Shown here: positions 11,877-26,790 of the stretch, piece by piece
Layout of the letters: each line of letters starts with the position of its first letter
How positions within the stretch are numbered: position 1 is the first letter of the stretch
NCBI GenBank assembly: GCA_017415715.1
Contig: JAFQFD010000019.1
Span: 43,655 to 107,654, forward strand
DNA length: 64,000 nucleotides
Reading direction: 5' to 3'
DNA from: Bacteroidales bacterium
Lineage (GTDB): Bacteria; Bacteroidota; Bacteroidia; Bacteroidales; UBA932
Position numbers and translations under genes: made by a program
The notes under the pieces: model-generated
The model's input: the letters and a program-made list of their open reading frames with translations, nothing else
The model's database searches: none
Told to the model about the DNA's origin: nothing

Positions 11877-12329
11877 TTATTGTCTGTCAATCTTCTGGGT
11901 TATCGCCTCGCATGCCCTTTCCAGGTCTGCAAGCACGCTCATGTAGAAGTCCTTCGGGCGGCATGTGGGGTCGTATACCACTTCGGATGACTCCAGTGCC
12001 CATTTCATCAGCAGATGTATCCTGTGATGATAGCTGTGTGGGATTATGCCCTTCATGTAGCTCACATGGTGCGGCTCCATGCAGAGGATGAGGTCTGAGC
12101 CGATTGCCGAGATGCTGTCGACTCTTCTGGTCTTCCCTGATATCCCGTATCCGGCTTCAGCTGCGACCTCCAGCATCGTCCTGTCCCGGTCAAGGCCGTC
12201 AGTCGCTCCCGTCCCTGCGGACGTTACCTTCACGCATGTGATTCCGGCTTCAGCAAGCTTTCTTCTGAGGATGCCTTCGGCAAGCGGGGAACGCGTCATG
12301 TTCCCGGTGCATATGAACATTACATTCAT
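11877..12329 (-). CDS. low-molecular-weight protein tyrosine phosphatase
   Basis: The 150-residue protein has the LMW-PTP phosphate loop near its N terminus, ICTGNMTRSPLAE (Cys7, Arg13, Ser14), and the general-acid motif as YDPTC near residue 125. Such enzymes remove phosphate from protein tyrosine or, in some bacteria, arginine. It lies 11 nt upstream of the HAD-PBP gene and 1 nt after the PP2C gene in the same operon, so both Ser/Thr- and Tyr-directed dephosphorylation are encoded together. No tyrosine kinase is visible in the window. The kinase-AAA gene at 17960 is the only protein kinase candidate. Confidence 0.9.
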   Translation of the reverse strand: MNVMFICTGNMTRSPLAEGILRRKLAEAGITCVKVTSAGTGATDGLDRDRTMLEVAAEAGYGISGKTRRVDSISAIGSDLILCMEPHHVSYMKGIIPHSYHHRIHLLMKWALESSEVVYDPTCRPKDFYMSVLADLERACEAITQKIDRQ

Positions 12330-12330
12330 G

Positions 12331-13008
12331 TCATTCTATGGTTATGAGTATTGCGCTGTAGTTGTCCTCCGCATACTTCTCGCAGAGGAACTTATATGTA
12401 TCCATGATCTCCTCGGGATCCTTGTCGTCAAGCATGCGGTCTCTGAGTATGTCGGGTCTGATGGAACTCCACAAGCCGTCGGAGCAGAGGAACACTCTGT
12501 CACCCGGCTCTACTTTGGAGGTAAAGACATCCGGCGTGGCCATGTCGGGATGACCAGTGAAGAACCCCCTGGCAAGGGGCGCCCCGATGCAGTTTCCGGC
12601 ATTGTGGTCTGTCGTCATGTACTTGGCTTTCCCTTCGCAGCCGTATACATAGCATCTGCTGTCCCCGCAGTGCGCGACGGTCAGCTGTTTTCCGTCGATA
12701 TGTGCCATTACCATAGTGGTTCCCATCTGTATGCCGCCGTATACGTCCGACATCGTGTCAAGGGTCCATGCTGCACGTGATATCATGAAACGGATATTTT
12801 CCTCGTCACCATCCCGTTTCCGCATGATGGCCCTGCATATGGAGGCTGCGACGATCTTTGCGGCCGTCCCTCCCATGGCATGCCCTCCCATGCCGTCGCA
12901 GAGAACGAAGGAATACCTTCCGTTCTCTGCATCGGTCATGGTTCTGATATGGTCCTGGTTCTCGCTTCTCGGACCCTTCTCGCTGAATGTATTATAGGTG
13001 ATCTTCAT
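12331..13008 (-). CDS. PP2C-family protein serine/threonine phosphatase
   Basis: The 225-residue protein is a compact stand-alone PP2C with all metal-binding motifs: RSENQD near the N terminus, DGMGGHAMGG (about 39-48), GTTMV, HCGDSR, CSDGLW and a C-terminal DNYSAILI. It has no membrane segment. PP2C enzymes reverse Ser/Thr kinase signalling. It sits between the DUF1232 gene and the tyrosine phosphatase gene in a four-gene operon. The likely counterpart is the kinase domain of the kinase-AAA protein 5 kb away, by analogy with other kinase/PP2C/vWA clusters. That pairing is inference. Confidence 0.92.
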   Translation of the reverse strand: MKITYNTFSEKGPRSENQDHIRTMTDAENGRYSFVLCDGMGGHAMGGTAAKIVAASICRAIMRKRDGDEENIRFMISRAAWTLDTMSDVYGGIQMGTTMVMAHIDGKQLTVAHCGDSRCYVYGCEGKAKYMTTDHNAGNCIGAPLARGFFTGHPDMATPDVFTSKVEPGDRVFLCSDGLWSSIRPDILRDRMLDDKDPEEIMDTYKFLCEKYAEDNYSAILITIE

Positions 13009-13024
13009 GATGTGCTCTTATGGA

Positions 13025-13462
13025 TTATGCTCCGGATCCTTTGATGGAATACTCAGGTCCGAACCATTCCTCTACTTTTTCCTTTGCCTTTAATTCTATG
13101 GCAGGGGTGATGTTCTTGCCGATCCTGTTGATGACAAACGCTATGGCTGCACCATCGTCAATCAGTCCGATACCTCCGAACTTTGCGAATGGAATGATGT
13201 CCCTACGCGACACCGTGTATATGATTGCTGCATAGATGAGTATCTTGTCCAACTTTGGTGTCTTCGGGTCGTCAAGGACGTACCAAGCCTGCAGACACTT
13301 CTCGCATGCCTCCCTTTTGAGCGTATTACCATATTTCTTGATGTCTTCCCAGGCTTCCTGGCAGCGTGCCTTCCAGTCAATGTCCTTGAGTTTTTCCAAA
13401 TGCGGTTTGAAGTCTAATCCATTCATTACAGCCGCAAGAATTAATAAGCAGATTAATAACAT
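13025..13462 (-). CDS. DUF1232 (YkvA-type) membrane protein
   Basis: The 145-residue protein has an N-terminal hydrophobic segment (MLLICLLILAAVM), then a charged helical stretch. The DUF1232 signature follows at about residues 68-115: LDKILIYAAIIYTVSRRDIIP, continuing into a GLIDDGAAIAFV segment (about 98-110). DUF1232 proteins are small membrane proteins of unknown function. It is the first gene of the operon leading to PP2C, LMW-PTP and HAD-PBP. The start lies in a stretch that is also open in another frame (13377-13568), but that frame has no family resemblance. Confidence 0.8.
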   Translation of the reverse strand: MLLICLLILAAVMNGLDFKPHLEKLKDIDWKARCQEAWEDIKKYGNTLKREACEKCLQAWYVLDDPKTPKLDKILIYAAIIYTVSRRDIIPFAKFGGIGLIDDGAAIAFVINRIGKNITPAIELKAKEKVEEWFGPEYSIKGSGA

Positions 13463-14204: not shown

Positions 14205-14223
14205 ATGCGTGCAATTCACTTAA
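14205..14223. promoter_or_regulatory. distal NrtR-type operator copy (degenerate) upstream of nrtR-like gene
   Basis: ATGCGT-N7-ACTTAA, a weak match to TTGCGT-N7-ACGCAA, placed exactly 52 bp before the proximal operator, the same spacing as at two other promoters in the window. Confidence 0.5.
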
Positions 14224-14251
14224 AAGATTTTGTTCTTTATTTTATTTGTTG

Positions 14252-14275
14252 TAAATTTGCGTTATAAATACACAA
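14252..14275 (+). promoter_or_regulatory. -7 box and overlapping operator of the nrtR-like gene
   Basis: TAAATTTG (14252-14259) matches TAnnTTTG. The operator TTGCGTTATAAATACACAA (14257-14275) begins inside it and ends 6 nt before the ATG. Binding there should block the promoter, consistent with autorepression. Confidence 0.7.
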
Positions 14276-14281
14276 AGAATA

Positions 14282-14989
14282 ATGGAAGGAATGTATTGCT
14301 ATAGGTATCCGCATCCGGCGGTGACGACAGACTGCGTCGTTTTCGGTTATGATCCCAATGACGGTCTGTCTGTCCTTTTGATCAGGCGAGGAGTGGAACC
14401 GTTCAAGGACTGCTGGGCTCTCCCCGGAGGATTTGTCAGGATAGATGAAGAGGTGGCCGCTTGCGCCAGCCGCGAACTTAACGAGGAGACCGGTCTGCAG
14501 CTTTCGCATCTGTCCAATCTGAAGGAATTGGGATGCTATTCCGGTGTTGACAGAGACCCGCGTGAGAGGGTAATCACTATAGCCTATTACCAGCTCGTCA
14601 GAAAGAGTGAGGTCAAGGGTGGCGATGATGCAAGGGAGGCACGCTGGTTCCCTGTGGATAACCTGCCGGCGTTCCCTTTTGATCACGATAAGATAGTGGA
14701 GCATGCGATCGAAAGGTTGAAGCGCGACATCTATTTTGAGCCGATAGGTTTCAACATATTGCCTGAGGTGTTTACCATGCCGCAGCTTTACAAGCTCTAC
14801 AAGTCCATCCTCAAGGTGGACTTCGACAGAAGGAACTTCGCCAACAAGATGATGAAGCTTGGAGTTGTTGACCAGGTCGGCAATCGTCCTAAGGATGCCA
14901 GCAGGAGAACTCCGATCCAGTACAGGTTCAACAAGGAAAGATATGAGATGTTGAAAAATGACAAGAAGGCGTTCAGAATGGAATTCTGA
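14282..14989 (+). CDS. nrtR: NrtR-family regulator (Nudix domain plus winged helix)
   Basis: The 235-residue protein has an N-terminal Nudix domain (about 10-145) with a complete Nudix box starting at Gly50 (GFVRIDEEVAACASRELNEE, then TGL). A C-terminal winged helix follows (about 155-225) with the NrtR/AraR pattern LPEVFTMPQLYKLYKSIL and RRTPIQYRF. Known NrtR proteins repress NAD-related genes and respond to ADP-ribose; some relatives respond to sugars. The intact Nudix box suggests hydrolysis may be retained. Its promoter carries paired operator-like repeats that recur before the next Nudix gene and the second sirtuin gene, so it probably regulates itself and those genes. Ligand not shown. 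The gene symbol rests on family only. Confidence 0.85.
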   Translation: MEGMYCYRYPHPAVTTDCVVFGYDPNDGLSVLLIRRGVEPFKDCWALPGGFVRIDEEVAACASRELNEETGLQLSHLSNLKELGCYSGVDRDPRERVITIAYYQLVRKSEVKGGDDAREARWFPVDNLPAFPFDHDKIVEHAIERLKRDIYFEPIGFNILPEVFTMPQLYKLYKSILKVDFDRRNFANKMMKLGVVDQVGNRPKDASRRTPIQYRFNKERYEMLKNDKKAFRMEF

Positions 14990-15001
14990 TGCTAAAGTGA
15001 G

Positions 15002-15025
15002 ACTGGTGCATGCACCAGTTTTTTT
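15002..15025 (+). terminator. intrinsic terminator after nrtR-like gene
   Basis: Palindrome ACTGGTGCATGCACCAGT (15002-15019) followed by a run of seven T. The same stem sequence ends the next Nudix gene. Confidence 0.85.
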
Positions 15026-15040
15026 ACCTCAAGATTAAAT

Positions 15041-15059
15041 TTATGTAAAATTTACGCAA
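15041..15059. promoter_or_regulatory. distal NrtR-type operator of the second Nudix gene
   Basis: TTATGTAAAATTTACGCAA. The right arm is ACGCAA and the left arm is degenerate. It lies 52 bp before the proximal copy and is nearly identical to the site at 23472. Confidence 0.65.
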
Positions 15060-15092
15060 AACTCTTGTGCAGAAGAAAAATTATTGCTTACT

Positions 15093-15111
15093 TTGTGTAA
15101 AAGAAACGCAA
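15093..15111. promoter_or_regulatory. proximal NrtR-type operator of the second Nudix gene
   Basis: TTGTGTAAAAGAAACGCAA, with an imperfect -7 box (TTACTTTG, 15088-15095) running into its left arm. It ends 11 nt before the chosen ATG. Confidence 0.65.
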
Positions 15112-15122
15112 TTAGGTTGAGA

Positions 15123-15596
15123 ATGAATATTGGATCTTATACATATGACTTTGCCAGGCCTGCCATGACGGCTGACTGTGTGGTATTATGTCATGGAACT
15201 GAATCATTGGAGGTTCTGCTGATCGATCGTAGGTTCAGACCGTTCAAGGGATGTTGGGCCTTACCTGGCGGATTCATGATGATGGATGAGGACGCTGAGA
15301 CCGCCGCCAGGAGGGAACTGTACGAGGAAACGGGAGTCCGGGTTGATAAGGTCGAGCAGTGCGGTGCCTTCACCGATGTAGATAGAGATCCTCGTGAAAG
15401 GGTAGTGACCATAGCATACTATGCGCTAATAGACAAGACGGAAGCGGTAGCTGCAGATGATGCTCAGAAAGCCGAATGGTTTCCCGTTGATGCTCTTCCG
15501 CCTTTGGCATTTGATCACGACAGGATCATTCAGTCTGCGATGAATGACTTGTGGAATAAACGAAACATGCTGAACGATGACAGAAAGGAAATATAG
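15123..15596 (+). CDS. Nudix hydrolase (NrtR-like domain without winged helix)
   Basis: The 157-residue protein is closely related to the Nudix half of the preceding regulator (shared FKGCWALPGGF, VDRDPRERVVTIAYYAL, FPVDALPPLAFDHD). It stops before the DNA-binding part. The Nudix box is complete (GFMMMDEDAETAARRELYEE, then TGV). The ATG at 15123 is chosen because a longer frame from 15084 would translate through the operator and the -7 region. ADP-ribose pyrophosphatase activity is a reasonable guess from the relation to NrtR, but substrates of this family vary. It is followed by a terminator with the same stem as the one before it, pointing to tandem duplication of the Nudix unit. Confidence 0.85.
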   Translation: MNIGSYTYDFARPAMTADCVVLCHGTESLEVLLIDRRFRPFKGCWALPGGFMMMDEDAETAARRELYEETGVRVDKVEQCGAFTDVDRDPRERVVTIAYYALIDKTEAVAADDAQKAEWFPVDALPPLAFDHDRIIQSAMNDLWNKRNMLNDDRKEI

Positions 15597-15635
15597 AAAA
15601 ATAGTTGTCATAGGAGTCCTCGAGCAGGAGGGTAG

Positions 15636-15661
15636 ACTGGTGGACCGGCACCAGTTTTTTT
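15636..15661 (+). terminator. intrinsic terminator after the second Nudix gene
   Basis: ACTGGTG (15636-15642) and CACCAGT (15649-15655) followed by seven T. The stem is shared with the terminator at 15002. Confidence 0.85.
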
Positions 15662-15676
15662 ACCCCACAAGCTCGA

Positions 15677-15695
15677 TTGAGTAAAATATACTCAA
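15677..15695. promoter_or_regulatory. NrtR-type operator variant, perfect arms
   Basis: TTGAGTAAAATATACTCAA: arms TTGAGT/ACTCAA around the same AAAATAT core as the other sites. It lies 33 bp after the ACC that follows the terminator T-run, exactly as at 15026-15059. No clear partner lies 52 bp downstream. Confidence 0.55.
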
Positions 15696-15768
15696 AGATA
15701 CAAAAGTATACGCTGAAGTGGTAGATATACTGATTAGGAGACTCCTACTAAAGTAAAAGACACATGCT

Positions 15769-16197
15769 ATGGATAAGAAAGGTTTTGTACATATCGGTTA
15801 CAGGCATCTCAACGATGCGATGAAGAGAGTCATCACAGTTCCATCAGGATTCTCGTTCGTGATGTTTGATGACATTGTCTACAGTATTCAGACGCTGGAG
15901 AAGGGAGAATTGATCCATGACTTTGGCAAGAGTGGTACTATCATAATGGATGAGTATGGACGGCACTGGTTCCGTCGTTTGTTCGCAGCGGGAGACATGG
16001 AAACGTTCGAGACGTATGAGCCGCTGCCGGCTGAAGTCGTTTCCGAAGAATACGTGGCGAAGAGGATTCCTGACATGATGATATATCCTTTCGTAAGGCT
16101 GGACCGTGCGCGAGAGCTGGTCGAGATCTATGAGGCCAGTCCGGGATGGAGCGATGAGGAGCCGCTGAGGATCCTGGAGATAAACGGAAAAATTTAA
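15769..16197 (+). CDS. uncharacterised protein (142 aa)
   Basis: A soluble protein with no recognised family. The N-terminal half is strand-rich (FVHIGYRHL, VITVPSGFSFVMFDD). The C-terminal half is helical and acidic (AEVVSEEYVAKRIPDMM, LDRARELVEIYEAS). It lies downstream of an NrtR-type operator variant and is followed by a small membrane protein gene on the same strand. Inclusion in the ADP-ribose-related regulon is suggested by the operator only. Confidence 0.65.
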   Translation: MDKKGFVHIGYRHLNDAMKRVITVPSGFSFVMFDDIVYSIQTLEKGELIHDFGKSGTIIMDEYGRHWFRRLFAAGDMETFETYEPLPAEVVSEEYVAKRIPDMMIYPFVRLDRARELVEIYEASPGWSDEEPLRILEINGKI

Positions 16198-16273
16198 GGC
16201 GAAGTTGAAATTTATGTGATAGGTATAGCAGATCGTCTGGCTACTGGTGCGAAAACATTTAAAGAATATAGCT

Positions 16274-16489
16274 ATGATTGATTCAGACCTCATTGCGGCT
16301 TTCCTTGAAGGTAAGACGACAAAAGACCAGACGATGGAGCTGCTTAGGGCGATGAGTGTGTCGGGTGTGCTGTTCAATACGGTAGTTGCGGCCGCTGTGA
16401 TCACCTCAAAAGCCTGCCTAAAGAAAAGAAGAGAAGAAGATGAAAGGAACAAGCAAAGAAACTTAGAAGGAAAATTGAACCTTATATAA
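16274..16489 (+). CDS. small membrane protein with anti-sigma-like N terminus (71 aa)
   Basis: From ATG 16274 the protein reads MIDSDLIAAFLEGKTTKDQT. This short helical module resembles the start of Bacteroidota anti-sigma proteins (compare ARFFEGRTTSEE in the FecR protein at 62340). One transmembrane segment follows (about 31-48), then a very basic and acidic tail. It lies about 300 bp before a divergent sigma-like gene, so it may be its membrane anchor. An upstream start at 16247 would add nine residues. Family and role are inferred from pattern only. Confidence 0.55.
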   Translation: MIDSDLIAAFLEGKTTKDQTMELLRAMSVSGVLFNTVVAAAVITSKACLKKRREEDERNKQRNLEGKLNLI

Positions 16490-16571
16490 TATAAAGAATT
16501 AATTCATAAGTAGTTAATAAGAATATAGAGCCCCACAAACAATTAGTTTTTAACGTTAAAAAGATTGTAGT

Positions 16572-16625
16572 ATGACAAATTGGATGACATGGTTGAACCG
16601 CTCAGTGAAGGAGCATCCGCTTTGA
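16572..16625 (+). other. very short open frame (17 aa), doubtful
   Basis: ATG 16572 to TGA 16625, reading MTNWMTWLNRSVKEHPL. It is amphipathic with two Trp. It lies in the 300-bp gap between the small membrane protein and the sigma-like gene. It may be a leader peptide or chance. Confidence 0.2.
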
Positions 16626-16643
16626 GTTGGAAACCTATAAAAG

Positions 16644-16763
16644 ATGGATTTGATTAAGATTTTAAGATTTGGATCAGTAAGGCATAAGCCAAAACAGGGT
16701 CGGGTCCTAGGGACAGGCTCTGAGGAATTGTCAGGGATAGCTGGCTTTCCTGAAGAAACATAA
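16644..16763 (+). CDS. possible small protein (39 aa) upstream of sigma-like gene
   Basis: A short open frame from ATG 16644 (MDLIKILRFGSVRHKPKQGR) to TAA 16763. It has a basic N-terminal half and a polar C-terminal half, with no membrane segment. It ends 28 nt before the sigma-like gene. No family is recognised. The gap otherwise holds no gene, and a chance frame cannot be excluded. Confidence 0.3.
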   Translation: MDLIKILRFGSVRHKPKQGRVLGTGSEELSGIAGFPEET

Positions 16764-16791
16764 TTATTAACTTTCCTAATATGGGGCTATT

Positions 16792-17826
16792 ATGGAAACT
16801 ACTTTTGAAAAATCGGCGCCGCAGCCGTCACCTGCGGCAGACCTGGCTTTTGTCAGGCGTCTGATGGAGGATGCAGATTTTGCCAAGTACTACTTCCTTG
16901 AGGATACGGACTTTGGCGAGAAGTGCAAGACCGCATCAAATATCGTCAATCGTGCCTACATCGACAAGCCGTACAGCAATGAAGGCGAGATCCGTGCAGT
17001 TCTCTACATGTACTTCTGCCAGAACCCCGGCAAGCCGCCTCTTGCCACCTTCAAGGCGGAGGCGTCCTTTGATACCTGGTTCTGGGGAACGAAGAAGGGT
17101 GCGGCAATGCGTCAGGTGTTCCGATACTATGACTCGATGGGCTTTGTAAGACCACGCCGCCTCAGCTCTGGAAACACGAAGCTGCGCATCCTTCACCTTC
17201 CGCTTGAAAAAAGGGAGTATATTGTTGACCTTGTGGCAGTGCCGGATTTTCATGAGGTGCTCGTGAAGGTCTATGTGGAGAAGAAGAAGCTGGATGTCGT
17301 ACGCGAAGAAATGGGTTATCCGGTGGCCGAGCCTAGTAAACAGGACGAGTTCAAGACGCTTCTCTCTTCGGCCAAAACGGCTCTCCGCGAGATGATCATA
17401 GAGACCGAGGATAAGGAACTCATCAACGAGGCATTGTGGACAAGCATCCGTCCCTTCAAGACCCGTGTCGAGGATCTCGTCATTCCTGAAGTTGCAGATG
17501 AGACGAGTCCAAGGACTCAGGTCTTCCGTGAGGCGCTGAAGGATTTGTATGGAATCAATCACAGACATCCTCTGTATCTTGCGCATCTGGAGAATTTCGT
17601 ACACAAGCTTGCCGAGGATATCAAGCCAAAGGACTGGAAGGGCGTCAACTGGGAGCGTGATGCTGATATCTGGCTCGCACGATTCCTTGATGACACTCCT
17701 GCAAAAGAGCTCGCCAAGCAGTACGGCATAAGGAGCACTGCTGTGGACAACATCAAGTCGAGGTTCGAGGCAAGGATCGTCAGACATCTCAAGAAGAAGA
17801 TGAAGTCATATCTCCGTGAGGCTTAG
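16792..17826 (+). CDS. divergent sigma-70-like protein (344 aa)
   Basis: The protein is longer than normal ECF sigma factors (about 200) but shows the same order of parts. Residues about 70-115 (GKPPLATF, ASFDTWFWGTKKGAAMRQVF) align by eye with the sigma factor at 2949 (GKIPLANF, TLTFWLKRVAINHCKRK), i.e. region 2. A long helical insert follows. The C terminus (about 300-335) is a helix-turn-helix-like segment, AKELAKQYGIRSTAVDNIKS, resembling region 4. It follows a small membrane protein with an anti-sigma-like module and precedes the kinase-AAA gene. It is probably a regulator of transcription; sigma activity itself is not certain. Confidence 0.6.
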   Translation: METTFEKSAPQPSPAADLAFVRRLMEDADFAKYYFLEDTDFGEKCKTASNIVNRAYIDKPYSNEGEIRAVLYMYFCQNPGKPPLATFKAEASFDTWFWGTKKGAAMRQVFRYYDSMGFVRPRRLSSGNTKLRILHLPLEKREYIVDLVAVPDFHEVLVKVYVEKKKLDVVREEMGYPVAEPSKQDEFKTLLSSAKTALREMIIETEDKELINEALWTSIRPFKTRVEDLVIPEVADETSPRTQVFREALKDLYGINHRHPLYLAHLENFVHKLAEDIKPKDWKGVNWERDADIWLARFLDDTPAKELAKQYGIRSTAVDNIKSRFEARIVRHLKKKMKSYLREA

Positions 17827-17832
17827 AAGATC

Positions 17833-17859
17833 AGAAGGATGCCGGGAAGGCATCCTTCT
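17833..17859 (+). terminator. hairpin after sigma-like gene
   Basis: AGAAGGATGCC (17833-17843) pairs with GGCATCCTTCT (17849-17859) over a five-base loop, 7 nt after the stop. No T-run follows, so termination may be partial. Confidence 0.6.
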
Positions 17860-17959
17860 ACGTTATATACAGGAGAAAATTAATGGGTACCCCTATGTTT
17901 GTCCGATAGATTAGGGCCATGGTCAGTCTCCTCTATTTTGTAAGCAATCTGACAGCAAT

Positions 17960-19735
17960 ATGAATTACACATTGACAATAGGACAGAATATAGAGGGCTA
18001 CAGGGTGATGGAGTACTGTAAGACCTACGGCCTTAACAACGCGGAGAGCTATAAGGTGGTTGGGCCGGACGGCCGGCCGGCGCTCATGAAGATAATTCTT
18101 GACGGATGCTACTCAGCGGAATTCACGGAAGAGGTTTGTGACCTGATGAAGAGCAGGTATTCCATGCCTGTGCTCAAGGATGCGGGCGTTATTACCGTCG
18201 ATTCCCTTGAGTACCGATATGTCGTCAGGGAGATAGGCAGGGGAACGAAGCTGTCGGAGATTCTGGCATCCGGGGTCATCTACTCATGGGAGGATGCCGT
18301 GAGGATAGTGTCCCAGGTGCTCGATGCCCTTGAGATGCTGCATCTGGCCGGAGTGATTCACAACGACATCACCCCTGAGAACGTTATCATTGATGACTTC
18401 AAGGCGACCCTGATCGGTTTCGGTCATCTCTCCAGGGCGTGTTTCGGAAGAGCGCGCTTCATGGTGAAGGACCTCGATCCATGGTATATGGCTCCGGAGA
18501 CGGGGAGGGGACGGTTCGACGAGAGGTCCGACCTGTTCTCCGTCGGGGCGCTGCTGTACAGGATGGTGTTCGGCATGGAGCCGTGGAGAGCGGGCAGCCC
18601 GGAAGTCCTCTCGATGGGCGATCTGAGGGAGCTCCGCAGGAAGCCGCTTCGTGACCTCAGCAAGAAGCTTGGGCCGGAGATTGACGAACACTCCCTGTCA
18701 GTGCTCTGCGGGATGCTTGAACCGGACTACGAGAAACGTTACGGGACAGCTACGGAGATACTCTGCAGACTTTCCGCAACGTTGGTTACTGCAGACGAAG
18801 AGGATGATGATGAAGAAGAGGTTGGGGCAGATGTTGCGGACTTACAGCCTGATGTCGAGTCGGTAGGAATCGTGGGACAGGAGGATCCGTCCAAACCCAG
18901 AGGTTTTGCCGCGATAGCTGGAATGGATGACGTCAAGGCACTGCTTACCGACGAGGTCCTTTATGTGCTGGAGAATCCTGAGAAGGTACGCAGGTACAGG
19001 CTCAAGGTTCCTAACGGAATGCTGTTCTTCGGGCCTCCTGGCTGCGGCAAGACCTATATAGCCGAGAACCTGGCCTACGAGAGCCGTCTGAACTTCATGA
19101 TGGTGAAGGCTTCTGATATAGGTAGCACCTTCGTTCATGGAACCCAGGGCAAGATCAGGGAACTCTTTGACAAGGCGGCGGCGACCGCACCGACCATCCT
19201 ATGCTTCGATGAGCTTGACGGCATGGTACCGGACAGGTCGAAGGTGACGAGCGAGGCCATAGCCGGAGAAGTGAACGAGTTCCTGACGCAGCTGAACGGA
19301 TGCTCGGAAAGGGGGATATTCGTTATCGGTACAACAAACAGGCCGGAGATGATAGATCCTGCCATCTTGAGGAGCGGGCGAATGGATCATCTGATCTACA
19401 TACCGATGCCCGACAGGGAAGCCCGAAGGGAGCTGTTCAGGATACATCTTGATGGCAGGCCGACGGAAGATGACATTGACACGGATGCTCTGGCAAGGAT
19501 GACTGACGGGTATGTGGCCAGTGACATAGAGCTTATCGTCAACAAGACGGCTCTCGTGTCCGCCAGAGACGATGTACCCATCAGCCAGCGGCGTCTTGAG
19601 GAGAGGATAGGGATCACGCGAAGGTCCGTATCAGAGTCGGAGCGTGCCGCCTACGAGTCGGTCTGTAGGGAGATCCTCTCTGCTCCACGGACGGAGGAGA
19701 AGAAAAGGATAGGGTTCAAAACATCATTAATCTAA
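17960..19735 (+). CDS. protein kinase domain fused to classical AAA ATPase
   Basis: The 591-residue protein has a Ser/Thr-kinase-like domain (1-275): Lys44 in ALMKI, HNDITPEN (134-141, catalytic Asp136 and Asn141 kept), a DFG position that reads GFG (153-155), APE (178-180) and ERSDLFSVG. The glycine loop is poor. With the DFG Asp missing, it may be a weak kinase or a pseudokinase. An acidic linker (280-300) leads to a p97/FtsH-type AAA domain: Walker A GPPGCGKT (358-365), Walker B ILCFDELD (413-420), TTN sensor, and Arg fingers in RSGRMD. No membrane segment is visible. It probably remodels or unfolds partner proteins under kinase-like control. A YbjN-like gene follows 5 nt later. PP2C and vWA genes lie nearby. 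Confidence 0.9.
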   Translation: MNYTLTIGQNIEGYRVMEYCKTYGLNNAESYKVVGPDGRPALMKIILDGCYSAEFTEEVCDLMKSRYSMPVLKDAGVITVDSLEYRYVVREIGRGTKLSEILASGVIYSWEDAVRIVSQVLDALEMLHLAGVIHNDITPENVIIDDFKATLIGFGHLSRACFGRARFMVKDLDPWYMAPETGRGRFDERSDLFSVGALLYRMVFGMEPWRAGSPEVLSMGDLRELRRKPLRDLSKKLGPEIDEHSLSVLCGMLEPDYEKRYGTATEILCRLSATLVTADEEDDDEEEVGADVADLQPDVESVGIVGQEDPSKPRGFAAIAGMDDVKALLTDEVLYVLENPEKVRRYRLKVPNGMLFFGPPGCGKTYIAENLAYESRLNFMMVKASDIGSTFVHGTQGKIRELFDKAAATAPTILCFDELDGMVPDRSKVTSEAIAGEVNEFLTQLNGCSERGIFVIGTTNRPEMIDPAILRSGRMDHLIYIPMPDREARRELFRIHLDGRPTEDDIDTDALARMTDGYVASDIELIVNKTALVSARDDVPISQRRLEERIGITRRSVSESERAAYESVCREILSAPRTEEKKRIGFKTSLI

Positions 19736-19740
19736 AGAGT

Positions 19741-20121
19741 ATGAAGACAAAGGAAAGAATTCTAGACGCATTGAAAAGACTGGGCCTCCAGCCTGATGAT
19801 GACGGTGACCAGGTAACGTTCCGTTATCAGATGTCCAATTACGTATTCTTCGTTGATGAGGACGATGAATGCTATATGGCGTTCTATATCCCATGCATAT
19901 ATGAGGTTACGGAGGAGAATGAGGTGGTGGTGCTCAAGGCTATCAATGAATGCAACCTGCACATGAAGACCGCCAAATTGGTCAGCTCCAACGGAAATGT
20001 ATGGGCGGCGTATGAGGTCCATGTCCCTGAAGAAGGTGGTCTTGAGGACTTCGTAGGGCGCGCCGTAGGATGCCTGTACCAGTCAGCTATCTGCTTCGAC
20101 CAGGAGATCAAGAATATTTGA
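19741..20121 (+). CDS. YbjN-like / CesT-fold small protein (126 aa)
   Basis: The small acidic protein has the strand-helix pattern of YbjN and type III secretion chaperone-like domains: YVFFVDEDDECYMAFYIP, VVVLKAINECNLHMKTAKL, then a strand pair and a C-terminal helix (FVGRAVGCLYQSAICFDQEI). It starts 5 nt after the kinase-AAA stop, so it is surely co-transcribed with it. Such proteins often act as chaperones or adaptors, so it may serve the AAA protein. The fold call is by pattern only. Confidence 0.65.
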   Translation: MKTKERILDALKRLGLQPDDDGDQVTFRYQMSNYVFFVDEDDECYMAFYIPCIYEVTEENEVVVLKAINECNLHMKTAKLVSSNGNVWAAYEVHVPEEGGLEDFVGRAVGCLYQSAICFDQEIKNI

Positions 20122-20122
20122 T

Positions 20123-20173
20123 CGATGTGCCGTCTATCCCTGGGTGCAATGGGATAGCCCCGGCGGCACATCG
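20123..20173 (+). other. nested RNA hairpin after the kinase-AAA operon
   Basis: CGATGTGCCG (20123-20132) pairs with CGGCACATCG (20164-20173). Inside, CTATCCC (20134-20140) pairs with GGGATAG (20151-20157). It begins right after the YbjN-like stop and has no T-run. A G-rich second hairpin follows (about 20179-20198). It could be a processing or stability element, an attenuator, or the leader of the next gene. Confidence 0.6.
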
Positions 20174-20254
20174 CCGATCCTCCTCCGGTAGGGGGAGGGA
20201 CGGCTTAAAGGTTGATTCGCTCGCGAAGCATGAAAAAGATAAATTAAAACCGTT

Positions 20255-20857
20255 ATGATTACTTTGGAAGAAAAGAATATGCTGGCCCGTAGAAGGGTGG
20301 AGTACTGTGATAACACCATGCTTGTGTTCAGGTATCTCAAGCTGTTGGAGAAGGATCCGGACTGGAGGTTCAGGTCGCTAGTCGGCTATCATCTGATGAG
20401 AAAGTTCCTTGATGACGAGACTTTCACGCCGACACAGGCACTCGAGATGGAGAATGTGCGGAGACCCTTGTGTGGTAAGTATTGGAAACTCCCTCTTTGT
20501 GCCATGTTCCCAGCCTCTCAGGTGGAAGAGAGTTCCAGTGTTGACTTTGTTTTTGATTCCTATGACACATATCTCATCAACCTCTGCTCCTTTGTGGAAG
20601 AGGCGCCCGTAATAGGATTCCGCTACGTATGCGAGGATGTGATGTCCGGGACACAGATCATAAAGGGCCTGGTGCCTCATGATGACCCGAGGCTGTCGGA
20701 AAGGTATCCCAGATGGGAATTCTATCAGGTAGACAGGTCGCGGACAGATGATATGACTGCGATGTTTTCTGTAGAGTTCGCTAATGTGCACAGGGTGGAG
20801 ATCGCTCACCTTTCGAAGGAGGATGACTGCTTTCACAGAATTTTCAACTCAAATTGA
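20255..20857 (+). CDS. uncharacterised protein (200 aa)
   Basis: No recognised family. The first 60 residues are helical and charged (EEKNMLARRRVEYCDNTMLV). The middle is richer in hydrophobic strands (SVDFVFDSYDTYLINLCSF). There is no signal peptide or membrane segment. Its stop lies 14 nt before the next gene's chosen ATG, so the two are probably co-transcribed. It is preceded by the structured 130-bp gap after the kinase-AAA operon. Presence in this island is the only clue to role. Confidence 0.65.
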   Translation: MITLEEKNMLARRRVEYCDNTMLVFRYLKLLEKDPDWRFRSLVGYHLMRKFLDDETFTPTQALEMENVRRPLCGKYWKLPLCAMFPASQVEESSSVDFVFDSYDTYLINLCSFVEEAPVIGFRYVCEDVMSGTQIIKGLVPHDDPRLSERYPRWEFYQVDRSRTDDMTAMFSVEFANVHRVEIAHLSKEDDCFHRIFNSN

Positions 20858-20871
20858 TACAGTCTTTAACT

Positions 20872-21480
20872 ATGGAGGATAATGTAATGTATGACGCAAT
20901 GATTGCCGGTGCTACTGCATCCCTGATCGCCATGAGCCATAGCGGGATCGTAAGCGATAACTTCGATACGTTCCATGGTCTTATGGTATTCTCATTCAAT
21001 GACATGAAGTTTCTTGAGGATCTTGGCCGTCTGAGACCGGGCGGCCAGGTCACAAGAGGTATCAGGCTTACTCCGAAGAATGATGCCGTATGCTTTGCCA
21101 CCAGACTCTGGTTTAGGGTCAAGAGGTCCTTGTCCAGATGGTGGGACGGATACTATGTAAGCATTGGGATCAACCTCAGGGAATCGGACAAGAATGTAAC
21201 CGGTATCCGTAAGCTTGAGATCTCGCGTCTGGCTGTGGGAGGCATTGAGGATATCTGCCAGAAGATAAATGCCGATGGATTCAGGGAGGATTGTCTTGAG
21301 CGTCTGACCGAACATGTATACTCTTCTTGTTATGAGTCTGTCTACGGCCTTATGGGATACCCTCCCGAGCATGAACTGAAGGATGAGCAACAGACTGAGA
21401 AAGTCATTAGGCCTTCACTGCTGATAGACTTCGGTTCGGCCCTCAGCTCGGTATCTATTGATATCCTGCAAGACGAATAA
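20872..21480 (+). CDS. uncharacterised protein (202 aa)
   Basis: A soluble protein with no recognised family. I start at ATG 20872 (MEDNVMYDAMIAGATASLIA), because the longer frame begins with TTG inside the previous gene. It has a hydrophobic N-terminal helix, a basic middle (RLWFRVKRSLSRWW) and an acidic C terminus. A strong terminator follows 27 nt after the stop. It pairs with the 200-residue gene before it. Confidence 0.65.
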   Translation: MEDNVMYDAMIAGATASLIAMSHSGIVSDNFDTFHGLMVFSFNDMKFLEDLGRLRPGGQVTRGIRLTPKNDAVCFATRLWFRVKRSLSRWWDGYYVSIGINLRESDKNVTGIRKLEISRLAVGGIEDICQKINADGFREDCLERLTEHVYSSCYESVYGLMGYPPEHELKDEQQTEKVIRPSLLIDFGSALSSVSIDILQDE

Positions 21481-21506
21481 ACGGGAATTGGCAGAAAAAC
21501 ACAAAA

Positions 21507-21536
21507 AGCGGAGAGAATGCGTCCATTCTCTCCGCT
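21507..21536 (+). terminator. strong intrinsic terminator between convergent genes
   Basis: AGCGGAGAGAATG (21507-21519) and CATTCTCTCCGCT (21524-21536) form a 13-bp stem with a four-base loop. It separates the plus-strand pair from the minus-strand vWA gene. Confidence 0.85.
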
Positions 21537-21682
21537 GCTTTCTTGTCCAATCGCCAGAAAGAAAGCCGAACTGCCGGCCTACGGTCCGGACGGGAAACAA
21601 CCGGCTCCAGCGTTCACGAAACGTCAGGAGCGTTTCTTCCGTGGATACGTTCCCGGAGGTCGTGAGCTCTCCGGGATATGTC

Positions 21683-22318
21683 TTATGCCTCTTCGTCGAA
21701 GAAGTTATTGTTGGCTTCGTCGGCGCTGAAGGTCTTGTCAGCGATGTGGTCATACAGCTTGTCTCTGCTTTTCATGAAGCAGTGAAGCATCTTTTCTGTA
21801 CCTATCGGGGATGCGCAGAATGCCATGGTGTTGGTGATCGAGATCGTCGCTGCAACCTTCTCGACATCCTGGTTGGCTCCGATATAGGCGAATACCCATC
21901 CCTTGCCTTTGAGCTCATCCACAAGAGCTTTGATTGCCTTGCCGGTGTATTCCGACGACGAGTTCTCCTCTCCGTCGGTGATGACGGTCACAAGTACCTT
22001 GTCTTCTGAGCCGACCTTGGGCCTGAGTCTGGTGAGTGCCTGTCCCATCGCGTCATACAGCGGTGTGCAGCATGACGGATTGTAGTCGCTGTCGGTGAGT
22101 TCCTTCACTTCGGATGCCGGAACACAGTCGCAGATGGTCTTGACTGCGTCGCTGTTGAACGACACGAGGGTGACCACGTGCTCCTGGTCTTCGTGCTTCT
22201 TCTGTGCGTTGCTTATGCTCTGAAGTGTTTCGTTCATGCCGTTTAACGCTGCGTTCTTGATGCTCTGCATCGAGCCGCTCTCATCAAGGATGATGAGGTT
22301 GAAAATACGTGTCTGCAT
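21683..22318 (-). CDS. von Willebrand factor A (vWA) domain protein
   Basis: The 211-residue protein is essentially a single vWA domain with an intact metal-ion site: DESGSM (residues 12-17), a conserved Thr in CCTPLYDAM (near 85) and TDGEENSSS (near 114). No signal peptide or membrane segment is present, so it is cytoplasmic. Stand-alone vWA proteins of this type often pair with AAA ATPases, kinases and PP2C phosphatases in bacterial signalling clusters, as here. It is followed upstream on the same strand by a gene with a frameshift at its start. Confidence 0.9.
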   Translation of the reverse strand: MQTRIFNLIILDESGSMQSIKNAALNGMNETLQSISNAQKKHEDQEHVVTLVSFNSDAVKTICDCVPASEVKELTDSDYNPSCCTPLYDAMGQALTRLRPKVGSEDKVLVTVITDGEENSSSEYTGKAIKALVDELKGKGWVFAYIGANQDVEKVAATISITNTMAFCASPIGTEKMLHCFMKSRDKLYDHIADKTFSADEANNNFFDEEA

Positions 22319-22340
22319 ACTATTAGGTGATTATGTTGTG

Positions 22341-23392
22341 TTAATATCTGATCTTTCTAAGTTCTTTGAGTTCCTCGTACAGTCTTGACGTCACCCTGGC
22401 GGTCATCTCCCTGTATGCCTCCCCTCTCTCTTCTCCCAGGCAGATAGCGATCTCCTCACTTACGTCGAGCCACTTGTGCAGCGCTACATCATACAGGCAG
22501 TGCATGTAGAGGATCAGTTCGAAATCGAACGCCTCGCCAAACACCTCCCATGCGAAATCGTAGTCCTTCTCTTTCCATTCCGAAACCACATCCTTGACCA
22601 CGTTCTGGACCCTTATGTTCTTGAATTCCTCCAGCAGACGCTCGTATTTCCGCAGGGATACCTTTGTGCACCTGTCAGGAAACCTGTACTCGCCGTCATG
22701 CCAGAATATTTCTCGTTCAAGTTCTTCCAGACGACGTTCCGACCAGTGTCTAAGATGTCCGTTTATGTCCATAGGCAGGGCGGAGTAGTGTGCCGCCCCG
22801 TACGTGTAGAACGTCATTATGCCGTTCACGGCATTGTTCAGGTCGAACCATTCGCTGTATTCCCTATAGAGAAGTTCTCCCAACGGTTCGCCGTTGTAGA
22901 TCCTCATCAGGCGGATATACTCGTTCGTCGTCCGGTAGACGGCCACGATTGCGTCCTCGTAGGATGCCGTATTTATCTCTGGCTGGTTGCCGTCACTATA
23001 GATGTTCATCAGATGGTTAATTGCTGTGGCTGCGGCGTCTTCGGCATCCTCTTCATAAATGTCCCTGTCGATACTTCTGCCGTATTCCTTCACGTTCTCC
23101 TTCATGGCGAGCGCCCATGCGAGGCCGTCGTCTGCATATTGGATCATGGTCATGGTCTCCATCATCCTGCTCATCAGCCAGTAGGCGTGAGGGGCGGCTT
23201 CGGTCAGTTTATCGTCACCGCTGAACATGAAGTTGGTCGTGGTGTCCACACGACAAGCATCTCGTCCCTTATGCGCATGATGTCCGCTGTGACGCTAGCT
23301 GTCGCTGCGTTTTCTTGGGCATTCAGCCTGTCTGCGTGGTAGCCTCCGGTTAGCAGCATCAGTGCTGCAAGTGCTTTCATTATAGTCTTCAT
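22341..23392 (-). pseudogene. secreted helical protein gene split by a 2-bp frameshift
   Basis: A 302-codon open frame (22341-23249, GTG start) encodes a helical, charged protein of unknown family. A second frame from ATG 23392 encodes a clear signal peptide (MKTIMKALAALMLLTGGYHA) and then QENAATASVTADIMRIRDEM. The two join smoothly as VV-DTTTNFMF if two bases are removed from the CACAC repeat at 23247-23251 (GTGTG on the coding strand). The intact product would be an exported protein of about 348 residues. A slipped microrepeat, phase variation, or a read error would explain it. If the short frame is used alone, the protein lacks its export signal. Confidence 0.6.
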
Positions 23393-23471
23393 ATGCTTTC
23401 AAGTGATTATCTGAGTATAACGGAGCCCGATGTAAGCTCCAATCTATCGCGTGACGCAAGATTTTTATTAA

Positions 23472-23490
23472 TTATGTAAAATATACGCAA
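23472..23490. promoter_or_regulatory. distal NrtR-type operator of the second sirtuin gene
   Basis: TTATGTAAAATATACGCAA, 52 bp before the proximal site. It differs by one base from the site at 15041. Confidence 0.7.
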
Positions 23491-23518
23491 AATCCTTGCT
23501 AATAATGATAATTATCGT

Positions 23519-23542
23519 TAGCTTTGCGTAAAATAAACACAA
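23519..23542 (+). promoter_or_regulatory. -7 box and overlapping operator of the second sirtuin gene
   Basis: TAGCTTTG (23519-23526) is a consensus -7 box. The operator TTGCGTAAAATAAACACAA (23524-23542) begins inside it, in the same phase as at the nrtR-like promoter. Confidence 0.75.
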
Positions 23543-23563: not shown

Positions 23564-24334
23564 ATGATTATGGATTATAGATATGAATGTCTCCCGGAAC
23601 TGGAAAGGAAGCCGGCAAGAAAGCGCATCGTTGTATTGACCGGTGCAGGTGTTAGTGCAGAGAGTGGCTTGCCTACATATAGAAGCGATGATTTTGCACT
23701 GTATGTTGATAATGACTGCATCAACCTGGCGACCCCTCAGGGTTTCCGCAAGAACCCCGCTGCCGTGCTGGACTTCTACAATAAGCGCCGCCTTCAGTTG
23801 GCTCAGGCTCAGCCTAACCATGCGCACATGCTACTTGCCGAGCTGGAGAAGTGGCATGATGTGACGATCATCACGCAGAATGTCGACGACCTCCATGAGA
23901 GGGCTGGTAGCACGGACATCATCCATGTGCATGGTGAACTGACCAAGGTGACTTCTTCTGTTTCACGCAGAGATCCGGCATGCGTCAAGGAATTCCCTCT
24001 TGACGTGCCTATGAAGCTTGGAGATATGGCTGCTGACGGATCTCAAGTCCGCCCTTATGTGGTCTGGTTCGGAGAGAAGGTGCATTATTATGAGAAATCG
24101 GTAAGAATTGTACGTGAAGCCGACATATTTGTAGTCATTGGAACATCTCTGAGAGTGACCCCGGCTGCAAACCTGATCAAATGTCCGCTCCCGTCTGCGA
24201 TGAAATTCATCATCGACCCGTGCGACCCGTTTGATCCGTGTGATGACAACTATCCGGAAGGATATGAACATATAAGAAAGAATGCTACTGTCGGAATGGA
24301 AATCCTGATAGACAGATTGATGGAGATGGAGTAA
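23564..24334 (+). CDS. Sir2-family NAD-dependent protein (sirtuin), zinc-site lacking
   Basis: The 256-residue protein has canonical NAD-binding motifs: TGAGVSAESGLPTYR (26-40), TQNVDDLHERAG (104-115), catalytic His123 in HVHGE, RPYVVWFGE, and GTSLRVTPAA. No CxxC zinc pairs follow the catalytic His (LTKVTSSVSRRDPAC). It is closer to consensus than the first sirtuin in this window. It could be a deacylase or an ADP-ribosyltransferase. Its promoter has the paired operator shared with the two Nudix genes, so its expression is probably tied to ADP-ribose or NAD status. A 44-residue membrane peptide gene and a WG-repeat gene follow on the same strand. Confidence 0.9.
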   Translation: MIMDYRYECLPELERKPARKRIVVLTGAGVSAESGLPTYRSDDFALYVDNDCINLATPQGFRKNPAAVLDFYNKRRLQLAQAQPNHAHMLLAELEKWHDVTIITQNVDDLHERAGSTDIIHVHGELTKVTSSVSRRDPACVKEFPLDVPMKLGDMAADGSQVRPYVVWFGEKVHYYEKSVRIVREADIFVVIGTSLRVTPAANLIKCPLPSAMKFIIDPCDPFDPCDDNYPEGYEHIRKNATVGMEILIDRLMEME

Positions 24335-25719: not shown

Positions 25720-26790
25720 ATGATCATGATACCAGATAAAGACAGAATACGTGGTTCGTTGATCGGTGGTGCGATCGGAGACGCTCTTGGCTATCCGGTC
25801 GAGTTCATATACGATTACCGGATCATCCAGCAGAAATATGGAGAGCGTGGCATAACGCGCTATGACAGGTCGCATTCATGGAAGGGAGAAAACGGCCAGA
25901 ACGAAAAGGCGTGGATCTCCGATGATACACAGATGACTTTGTTCACTGCGTGCGGCCTCTTGAATGCCAAGGCCGATCTGGCGAAGTCCGGGATAAGCTC
26001 GATATGTTCGGCCTATCTGGAGTGGTATTACACACAGATAGACAGGCCGGAAAAGAAACCTCTGGACTGCTGGATCAGGCAGATTCCTGAAATCAATCAG
26101 AGGAGGGCGCCCGGAAACACATGTATGAGTGCCTTGACGGATATATACTATGGGAGAGAGCCGCACAACAACAGCAAGGGATGCGGTGGCGTGATGCGAG
26201 TAGCGCCGATCGCTCTATACGGCATCGGTGAAGGACGTTTCCCTGATATCAAGTCGATGGACATGCTTGCTGCTGAAGCGGCAGAGCTGACTCATAAGCA
26301 TCCGTTGGGCTATATCCCTGCGGCCATGATGGTTCACATCATCTACCGCCTTGCTACAACTCAGAAGCCGATGCGTGACGACCTTCATTCATTTACAGAA
26401 GAGGCTATGGAGATGGTCAGCACGCTTTATCCGGAGCACGCATCAAGCATGGACTATATGAGGGCGCTGACAGAAAAGGCGTTCACGTTTGCGTCATCTG
26501 ATCTGCCCGACCACGAGGCAATCGAACTCATCGGAGGAGGCTGGGTCGGTGACGAGGCCCTGGCTATCGCGCTATATTGTGTCGCAAGATATTTCGACGA
26601 CTTCGAAAAGGCGATGATTGCTGCGGTAAATCATGCTGGCGACAGCGATTCGACAGGAGCCATAGCAGGCAATATCCTCGGAGCGGCTGTCGGCTATGAA
26701 GCATTGCCTGATTTCTATAAGAAAGACCTTGAACTGCACAATGTCATCCTCACAATCGCAGATGCTCTGTGTGGGGATGACCAGCGTTGA
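25720..26790 (+). CDS. ADP-ribosylglycohydrolase (DraG/ARH family)
   Basis: The 356-residue protein shows the family metal and ADP-ribose motifs in order: GSLIGGAIGDALGYPVEF near the N terminus, SDDTQMTLFTA (about 66-76), GCGGVMRVAPIAL (about 150), THKHPLGYIPAAMM, and AVNHAGDSDSTGAIAGNILG near the C terminus. These enzymes remove ADP-ribose from proteins or small molecules with a two-magnesium centre. In the island it provides the erase step opposite the sirtuins, and its product ADP-ribose is a substrate or ligand for Nudix and NrtR proteins. It follows the WG-repeat gene by 5 nt. No NrtR-type operator is visible directly before it. Confidence 0.92.
   Translation: MIMIPDKDRIRGSLIGGAIGDALGYPVEFIYDYRIIQQKYGERGITRYDRSHSWKGENGQNEKAWISDDTQMTLFTACGLLNAKADLAKSGISSICSAYLEWYYTQIDRPEKKPLDCWIRQIPEINQRRAPGNTCMSALTDIYYGREPHNNSKGCGGVMRVAPIALYGIGEGRFPDIKSMDMLAAEAAELTHKHPLGYIPAAMMVHIIYRLATTQKPMRDDLHSFTEEAMEMVSTLYPEHASSMDYMRALTEKAFTFASSDLPDHEAIELIGGGWVGDEALAIALYCVARYFDDFEKAMIAAVNHAGDSDSTGAIAGNILGAAVGYEALPDFYKKDLELHNVILTIADALCGDDQR

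Follow-up and report, generated by a model that had tools for sequence, protein, structure and literature searches.

The stretch of DNA analysed here (the window: 64,000 nucleotides of contig JAFQFD010000019.1, positions 43,655 to 107,654, from the Bacteroidales assembly GCA_017415715.1) carries a gene for an NrtR-family regulator and, in front of this and neighbouring genes, 19-bp palindromic operators that occur in pairs 52 bp apart. Our conclusion is that this two-operator regulon of an NrtR subfamily is real and conserved among relatives. The reading that we favour, at a probability of roughly 0.7, is autoregulated repression, in which two dimers of the NrtR-like protein would bracket the promoter and be released by ADP-ribose or a close derivative.

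The initial annotation proposed a 19-bp element, about TTGCGT-N7-ACGCAA, at seven positions. Six of these are strong palindromes lying where it placed them, and the seventh, at 14205, is weak, as it had also said. The sites and the regulator gene are as follows; the sister genome is a relative with a 94% identical NrtR (locus L039).

14205..14223, no strand: weak site resembling a distal operator (ATGCGTGCAATTCACTTAA), scoring 9.1 bits and lying exactly 52 bp from 14257
14257..14275, no strand: proximal operator of the NrtR gene, identical in the sister genome (L039 2090)
14282..14989, + strand: NrtR-family regulator, Nudix domain and winged helix (PF00293, 1.9e-20; PF21906 NrtR_WHD, 2.4e-16; PF19368 AraR_C)
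15041..15059, no strand: distal operator of the Nudix gene, matched by consensus, genome scan and pair model
15093..15111, no strand: proximal operator of the Nudix gene, overlapping the -7-like TTACTTTG, matched in the same three ways
15677..15695, no strand: single operator before the gene at 15769, conserved at L039 2875 of the sister genome
23472..23490, no strand: distal operator of the sirtuin promoter, matched by consensus, genome scan and pair model
23524..23542, no strand: proximal operator of the sirtuin promoter, again matched by all three

At up to two mismatches, TTGCGT-N7-ACGCAA occurs in the window at exactly the six strong sites (14257, 15041, 15093, 15677, 23472 and 23524) and nowhere else, while at up to three mismatches it is not enriched there (25 found, 21.4 ± 4.9 by chance). 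A search of the whole genome, which spans 2.58 Mb and is 86% complete, with the fully specified consensus TTGYGTAAAATWWACGCAA gives 10 matches at up to three mismatches, and its reversed control gives none. Of the six strong window sites, five are among the 10 matches, two of them on the minus strand as well; the others are one site upstream of an NrtR paralog on contig C47 and two weak places, so that the motif is found almost solely at this locus and before that paralog. The sixth window site, 14257, is missed because it departs too far from that consensus. The C47 paralog, on a different contig, is 65% identical to the window regulator, and its promoter has a clear distal operator and -33 box, a weak -7 box and a degenerate proximal operator.

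Three promoters had been credited with a 52-bp pair. Two of these pairs, 15041/15093 and 23472/23524, are spaced at exactly 52 bp and are secure. The third, 14205/14257, is marginal because 14205 is weak and has no counterpart site in the sister genome, where its right half alone looks alike; at that fixed place the site has a p of about 2.5e-4, and the 71-bp pair model described below gives the pair 24.5 bits.

Related loci were gathered by alignment of the regulator protein alone, the motif playing no part in the choice. The 80 loci behind all the locus counts given here are the best 80 of 546 confirmed stretches and, by record title, nearly all are metagenome-assembled genomes of Bacteroidales or Bacteroidia, with one (L161) labelled archaeal. 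We scanned this set (1.005 Mb) with a site matrix built from seven sites, six from the window and one from C47, at a cut-off of 10 bits, and found 210 sites forming 78 pairs 19-150 bp apart. Counted over related sequences that are not independent of each other, five of these pairs are spaced at 51 bp, 43 at 52, 12 at 53 and one at 54; there are a further two at 55, one at 57, one at 49, four at 24-29 and nine from 73 to 143 bp, and no pair among the 78 lies at four or six helical turns. Five column-permuted matrices at the same cut-off gave 0-3 pairs each, none at 52 or 53 bp; with the cut-off at 12 bits, a single 52/53 pair came from one of these matrices. A pair at 51-54 bp is present in 61 of the 80 loci, and one at 51-57 bp in 64, so that both the sites and the 52-bp spacing hold up in relatives.

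The spacing is not confined to one kind of gene. Assigned with an open reading frame (ORF) caller, the 64 pairs at 51-57 bp stand before the regulator gene (44), NADAR (7), CreD (5) and, once each, an ADP-ribosylglycohydrolase gene, a macro-like gene (at 55 bp) and another gene; five have no gene assignment, apparently because a larger antisense ORF was retained. Pairs of the 52-bp type also precede phosphatase-like genes in relatives, the window's own Nudix and sirtuin genes and, judged by sight, an apparent VWA gene (G044) and an apparent TonB receptor gene (G050), which brings the count to at least nine different downstream genes.

Two further arrangements were seen among the loci. The first is another class of geometry, in which the operators are spaced at 24-29 bp (L042 10391, L139 6082, L155 2127, L051 2858, L055 6912 and L159 2061), close to the 24-bp spacing implied by the published 3-bp gap of AraR. 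The second is a 53-bp pair of related palindromes at L189 1500-1571, flanked on one side by a more distant NrtR-like regulator and on the other by a gene that is glycosidase-like by sight; from this pair, the geometry may reach beyond the NrtR subfamily.

The operators are tied closely to the promoter, whose boxes we label -33 and -7 after the Bacteroidota promoter consensus. In the window these boxes are:

14252..14259, + strand: -7 box TAAATTTG of the NrtR promoter, at the consensus columns and overlapped by the proximal operator
15064..15067, + strand: -33-like CTTG between the Nudix-gene operators, positioned as in the consensus
23495..23498, + strand: -33-like CTTG of the sirtuin promoter, at the consensus columns
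23519..23526, + strand: -7 box TAGCTTTG of the sirtuin promoter, at the consensus columns and overlapped by the proximal operator

Across 41 distinct 52-bp pairs, the column profile places the distal operator at columns 1-19, TTTGG at 24-28, TAnnTTTG at 48-55 and the proximal operator from column 53; the distal operator therefore abuts the -33 box and the proximal operator starts inside the -7 box. We also looked in this profile for a third, middle operator and saw none. The sequence bears out the earlier observation that the operators at 14257 and 23524 start in the -7 box at the same offset, and the operator at 15093 shares this offset with a weaker -7 box.

Such placement raises the possibility that the spacing is imposed by the promoter, with operators tied to the -7 and -33 boxes so that independent dimers would simply land 51-54 bp apart. 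We consider this a serious competitor, at somewhat less than even odds. The proximal operator stands at a constant -7 offset in 65 of 71 distinct pairs (three are shifted and three have no detected -7 box), and the distal operator lies 3-6 bp before the detected -33 box in 66 of the 71. At three loci (L150, L157 and L165) the promoter and distal operator are intact while the proximal operator is displaced downstream by 3-5 bp, giving 55 or 57 bp, so the distal site stays with the -33 box when its partner shifts; the use of 24-29 bp at some loci points the same way. Part of the fixed geometry does, then, follow from promoter placement. Against this being the whole account, the distal gap and the gap between -33 and -7 compensate: they are anticorrelated over 61 pairs, from which two clear -33 misdetections were excluded (r -0.42, permutation P 0.001, a value that shared descent and error in -33 detection may inflate). 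The total spacing thus appears to be held tighter than its parts, as if selected. In 53-bp pairs the additional base falls between the distal operator and -33 in 11 of 13. Cooperative contact between the dimers is a plausible cause, in competition with spacing imposed by the promoter.

It is unlikely that the geometry is instead a functionless relic of one promoter copied to several genes. Spacers resemble one another somewhat more than shuffled spacers do (0.42 against 0.31), with 57% shared between the two of the window; however, this excess may come partly from positional base composition and from orthologous promoters in the set, and the spacing stands before many different genes. We give a similarly small chance to a dual regulator, in which the distal operator, with its centre estimated near -49 and just upstream of the -33 box, would activate while the proximal operator represses. 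Both operators have one consensus, the proximal being more constrained, which is due in part to the -7 box; in the part of PMC4666351 drawn on here, NrtR and AraR proteins act as repressors.

The regulator itself has the domain order of the NrtR family, an N-terminal Nudix domain followed by a C-terminal NrtR-type winged helix, and its Pfam domains uphold its original description as NrtR-type. From its sequence we assign it to a distinct subfamily, examined in 96 proteins, 79 of them from the 80 loci. Its best match in the Protein Data Bank (PDB) is BtAraR (5bs6, 2e-43), with SoNrtR (3gz5) further down. The equivalent of SoNrtR Arg41 (R36, in an LL-x-x-R pattern) is present in all 96 proteins, and R94, which aligns with SoNrtR Arg98, is an arginine in 95 of the 96, a set whose selection required RDP just before this position. 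Arg98 of SoNrtR contacts ADP-ribose, and AraR has Gly89 there (PMC4666351). At the place of AraR Phe36 the proteins have smaller or polar residues (Ile in 61, also Leu, Val, Gly and others) and never Phe; the pocket of AraR, closed to nucleotides by Gly89 and Phe36, is thus not that of the subfamily. The proposal of ADP-ribose as the probable ligand accordingly gains indirect support, through the Arg98 equivalent. That the protein senses sugar like AraR and XylR, its NAD and ADP-ribose neighbours being incidental, is less likely still than the preceding two alternatives: BtAraR is its closest solved structure and AraR Arg34, Arg86 and His131 have equivalents in it, but the arginine at the Gly89 place, the missing Phe and the frequency of ADP-ribose enzymes among its neighbours speak otherwise.

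The Nudix box sets the subfamily apart. NrtR and AraR proteins have been described with an impaired Nudix box (PMC4666351), an impairment typical of, though not strictly defining for, the NrtR of NAD metabolism; the window regulator lacks it and has the full signature intact. The strict signature is found in 61 of the 79 proteins from the 80 loci, and the RExxEE core in 78 by script and in the 79th (L096) by eye. Hydrolysis of the ligand by this Nudix box is possible. As to DNA recognition, Lys179, Arg180 and Asn181 in a helix of BtAraR contact DNA and define GTGT (PMC4666351); the regulator has R183, R184 and N185 at these places, and its sites read GYGT. We tried relating the residue after DRRNF to the inner operator base and abandoned the idea as too weak, with Gln accompanying C at two sites and Tyr accompanying C-containing sites in L200.

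The genes beside the regulator in relatives are annotated by Pfam and NCBIfam as ADP_ribosyl_GH, PARG_cat_microb, NADAR, a nucleotidyltransferase-NADAR fusion, DUF1810, TIR, CreD and the A1S_2505 domain; the last is a phage non-structural protein in NCBIfam, and "macro-like" is our own reading. A codirectional gene within 200 bp follows the regulator at 56 loci by the ORF caller (24 of the 80 have none), and it is an ADP_ribosyl_GH gene in 21 of the 56 and carries the macro-like signature in 25. Among 63 control genes from the same loci (a 64th, from L144, was excluded from the alignment), none is macro-like, and at most one is ADP_ribosyl_GH, which is not among the control families with at least two members. 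With family models, some of whose seeds were taken from these same loci, an ADP-ribose or NAD gene was found in the flank (up to 8 kb) at 52 of the 80 loci; TIR is present at three and NADAR at seven. No pentose gene was seen among 30 scanned proteins (one scanned twice), a sample in which not every neighbour is annotated.

At three loci, TIR-domain and CreD genes lie divergently around a 52-bp-pair promoter next to the regulator (L041 10253-12614, L046 8765-9850 and L108 8681-9753), TIR being identified by Pfam in L041 and by clustering in L046 and L108.

Operator pairs also keep company with the regulator across genomes. A 71-column pair model trained on 40 pairs was applied to 101 genomes, of which at least G000 and G028 had themselves contributed training pairs. 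Matches of at least 35 bits, the level used, occur in 12 of the 101, and nine of these 12 are among the 15 genomes with the regulator, judged at E<=1e-55 (hypergeometric P 4e-7). Matches at E<=0.01 occur in 93 of the 101 genomes; most of the weak ones among the matches listed cover approximately columns 7-58, the -33/-7 part, and we read these as ordinary promoters and set them aside.

Two contigs from viral collections (L199 3740-6660 and L200 3640-6210) have common upstream genes, by sight of their printed starts, with different NrtR cassettes at one place: one holds the regulator, an unassigned gene and an ADP-ribosylglycohydrolase gene, the other the regulator and a VWA-like gene. Their operator pairs are spaced at 53 bp (L199) and 52 bp (L200). 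The difference is an apparent exchange of cargo.

The sites, their spacing, their placement on the promoter, their conservation, the family of the regulator and the identity of its neighbours are all observed, and from them we infer binding, repression, a ligand and cooperativity. In the favoured reading, the 14282-14989 product, a Nudix/winged-helix dimer, would repress its own gene and the adjacent Nudix and sirtuin genes, and possibly genes behind the sirtuin. One dimer, bound to the palindrome beginning within the -7 box, would block the start site, and a second would occupy the palindrome five helical turns upstream, ending 3-6 bp before the -33 box, so that on one face of the DNA the two bracket the RNA polymerase site. 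ADP-ribose or a close derivative, arising from NAD+ cleavage or from processing of ADP-ribosylated molecules, would enter the Nudix pocket, the dimers would be released, and enzymes that use or remove ADP-ribose would be induced.

Several results weigh against this reading, besides the shifted proximal operators already described. Permuted matrices at 10 bits also yield 52-96 single sites in the 80 loci and few pairs; single sites there consequently mean little, and it is the pairs that carry evidence. Similarly, an order-wide scan with the single 19-bp site at two mismatches matched 171 of 393 genomes, with a reversed control of the same order by eye among the matches listed; it is mostly noise, the site being too short. 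Two genomes (G017 and G048) have a strong pair before a CreD gene with no NrtR detected at E<=1e-20, and a third (G089) has a strong pair and weaker regulator homologs alone; genome incompleteness or loss could explain strong pairs of this kind. At 28 of the 80 loci there is no ADP-ribose gene among the modelled families. A sirtuin is near the regulator at one locus in 80, so the regulon as first described keeps its tie to ADP-ribose and NAD, mostly through ADP-ribosylglycohydrolase, macro-like, NADAR, PARG and VWA genes, and its sirtuin link proves uncommon. Finally, the NCBIfam model for the ADPR-responsive repressor, NF050029, scores 120.3 bits (9.1e-35) against a curated cut-off of 400, and the regulator is therefore not filed as that equivalog.

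The genes behind the window operators do include a Nudix and a sirtuin gene, as first proposed, and the sites form a small regulon there. The genes of the module, beyond the regulator, are:

15123..15596, + strand: stand-alone Nudix hydrolase (PF00293), a paralog 52% identical to the Nudix domain of the regulator
15769..16197, + strand: 142-aa protein, putative regulon member, no Pfam or NCBIfam match at E<=0.01
21683..22318, - strand: VWA-domain protein (PF00092), whose relatives adjoin NrtR in other genomes
22341..23392, - strand: gene upstream of the VWA gene and divergent from the sirtuin gene, with 80 bp between its start codon and the operator at 23472
23564..24334, + strand: Sir2-family NAD-dependent deacylase (PF02146; best PDB matches are NAD-dependent protein deacylases)
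25720..26790, + strand: ADP-ribosylglycohydrolase (PF03747, 4.2e-65), two genes downstream of the sirtuin on the same strand

The reading frame at 22341-23392 is interrupted in comparison with an intact relative in L039, possibly through assembly error. Beside the module, at 11877-13462 and 17960-20121, lie genes for a low-molecular-weight (LMW) phosphatase, a PP2C phosphatase, a kinase-AAA fusion and a weakly YbjN-like protein, which resemble a VWA-phosphatase-kinase triad. Clustered relatives of these genes flank NrtR at L089 (phosphatases, with a sirtuin) and at L156, L164 and L168 (kinase and YbjN-like). Identity as a defence system was sought with PADLOC and is not claimed: the kinase-AAA protein has numerous kinase and AAA hits (the best at 1e-29), TIR, NADAR and Nudix match weakly, and none of these matches identifies a system.

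NrtR regulators are known for control of NAD metabolism or pentose use, and the targets of SoNrtR are NAD metabolism genes, as against the ADP-ribose removal genes found here. Among described systems, each cited for the part of the source drawn on here, the Bacteroides arabinose repressor BtAraR (BT0354), also of the NrtR family, shares with the window regulator its domain order, a DxRNF recognition helix, a GTGT-type half-site and tandem operators before its own operon (PMC4666351). Its dimer covers 25 bp, and its 21-bp tandem sites are separated by 3 or 42 bp, which puts their centres 24 or 63 bp apart rather than 52; it also differs in its ligand, arabinose, its degenerate Nudix box and its sugar targets (PMC4666351). 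SoNrtR of Shewanella oneidensis (3gz5, 3gz6, 3gz8) likewise combines Nudix and winged helix, with ADP-ribose-contacting arginines that are conserved here, but has an impaired Nudix box (PMC4666351); its Lys76 aligns with a Nudix-box Glu of our regulator, E69. MsNrtR of Mycobacterium smegmatis is likewise an NrtR-family auto-repressor, and controls de novo NAD synthesis (PMC6800001). The NAD+-ADPr gene networks bring together macro, ADP-ribosylglycohydrolase, NADAR, Nudix, sirtuin and TIR enzymes as here, but the part of PMC9503650 drawn on describes viral conflict systems and does not mention this operator geometry. A literature search found no account of the 52-bp spacing or of the gene set, an earlier prediction in the founding NrtR paper being possible. 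The initial annotation's statement that it knew of no published description of this operator geometry agrees with that search as regards the 52-bp spacing, but needs the qualification that AraR has published tandem operators, separated by other distances (PMC4666351).

Because the repressor keeps an intact Nudix box, a bolder and rather doubtful extension suggests itself, that of a self-resetting ADP-ribose alarm: the repressor might both sense and destroy its ligand, and command a general ADP-ribosylation clean-up regulon in Bacteroidales (glycohydrolases, PARG, macro-like and NADAR proteins, occasionally TIR or sirtuin), a regulon that would also travel as exchangeable cargo on elements from viral collections. 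With or without this extension, a Bacteroidales-wide NrtR subfamily appears to control enzymes of ADP-ribose removal and processing, and scattered macro-like, NADAR, ADP-ribosylglycohydrolase and PARG genes, with the sirtuin of the window, would be gathered into one regulon for which a likely signal can be named. The geometry of the two operators is strict enough to provide a simple test system for cooperativity at Bacteroidota-type promoters, and the operator pair may be used as a tag for finding further members of the pathway.

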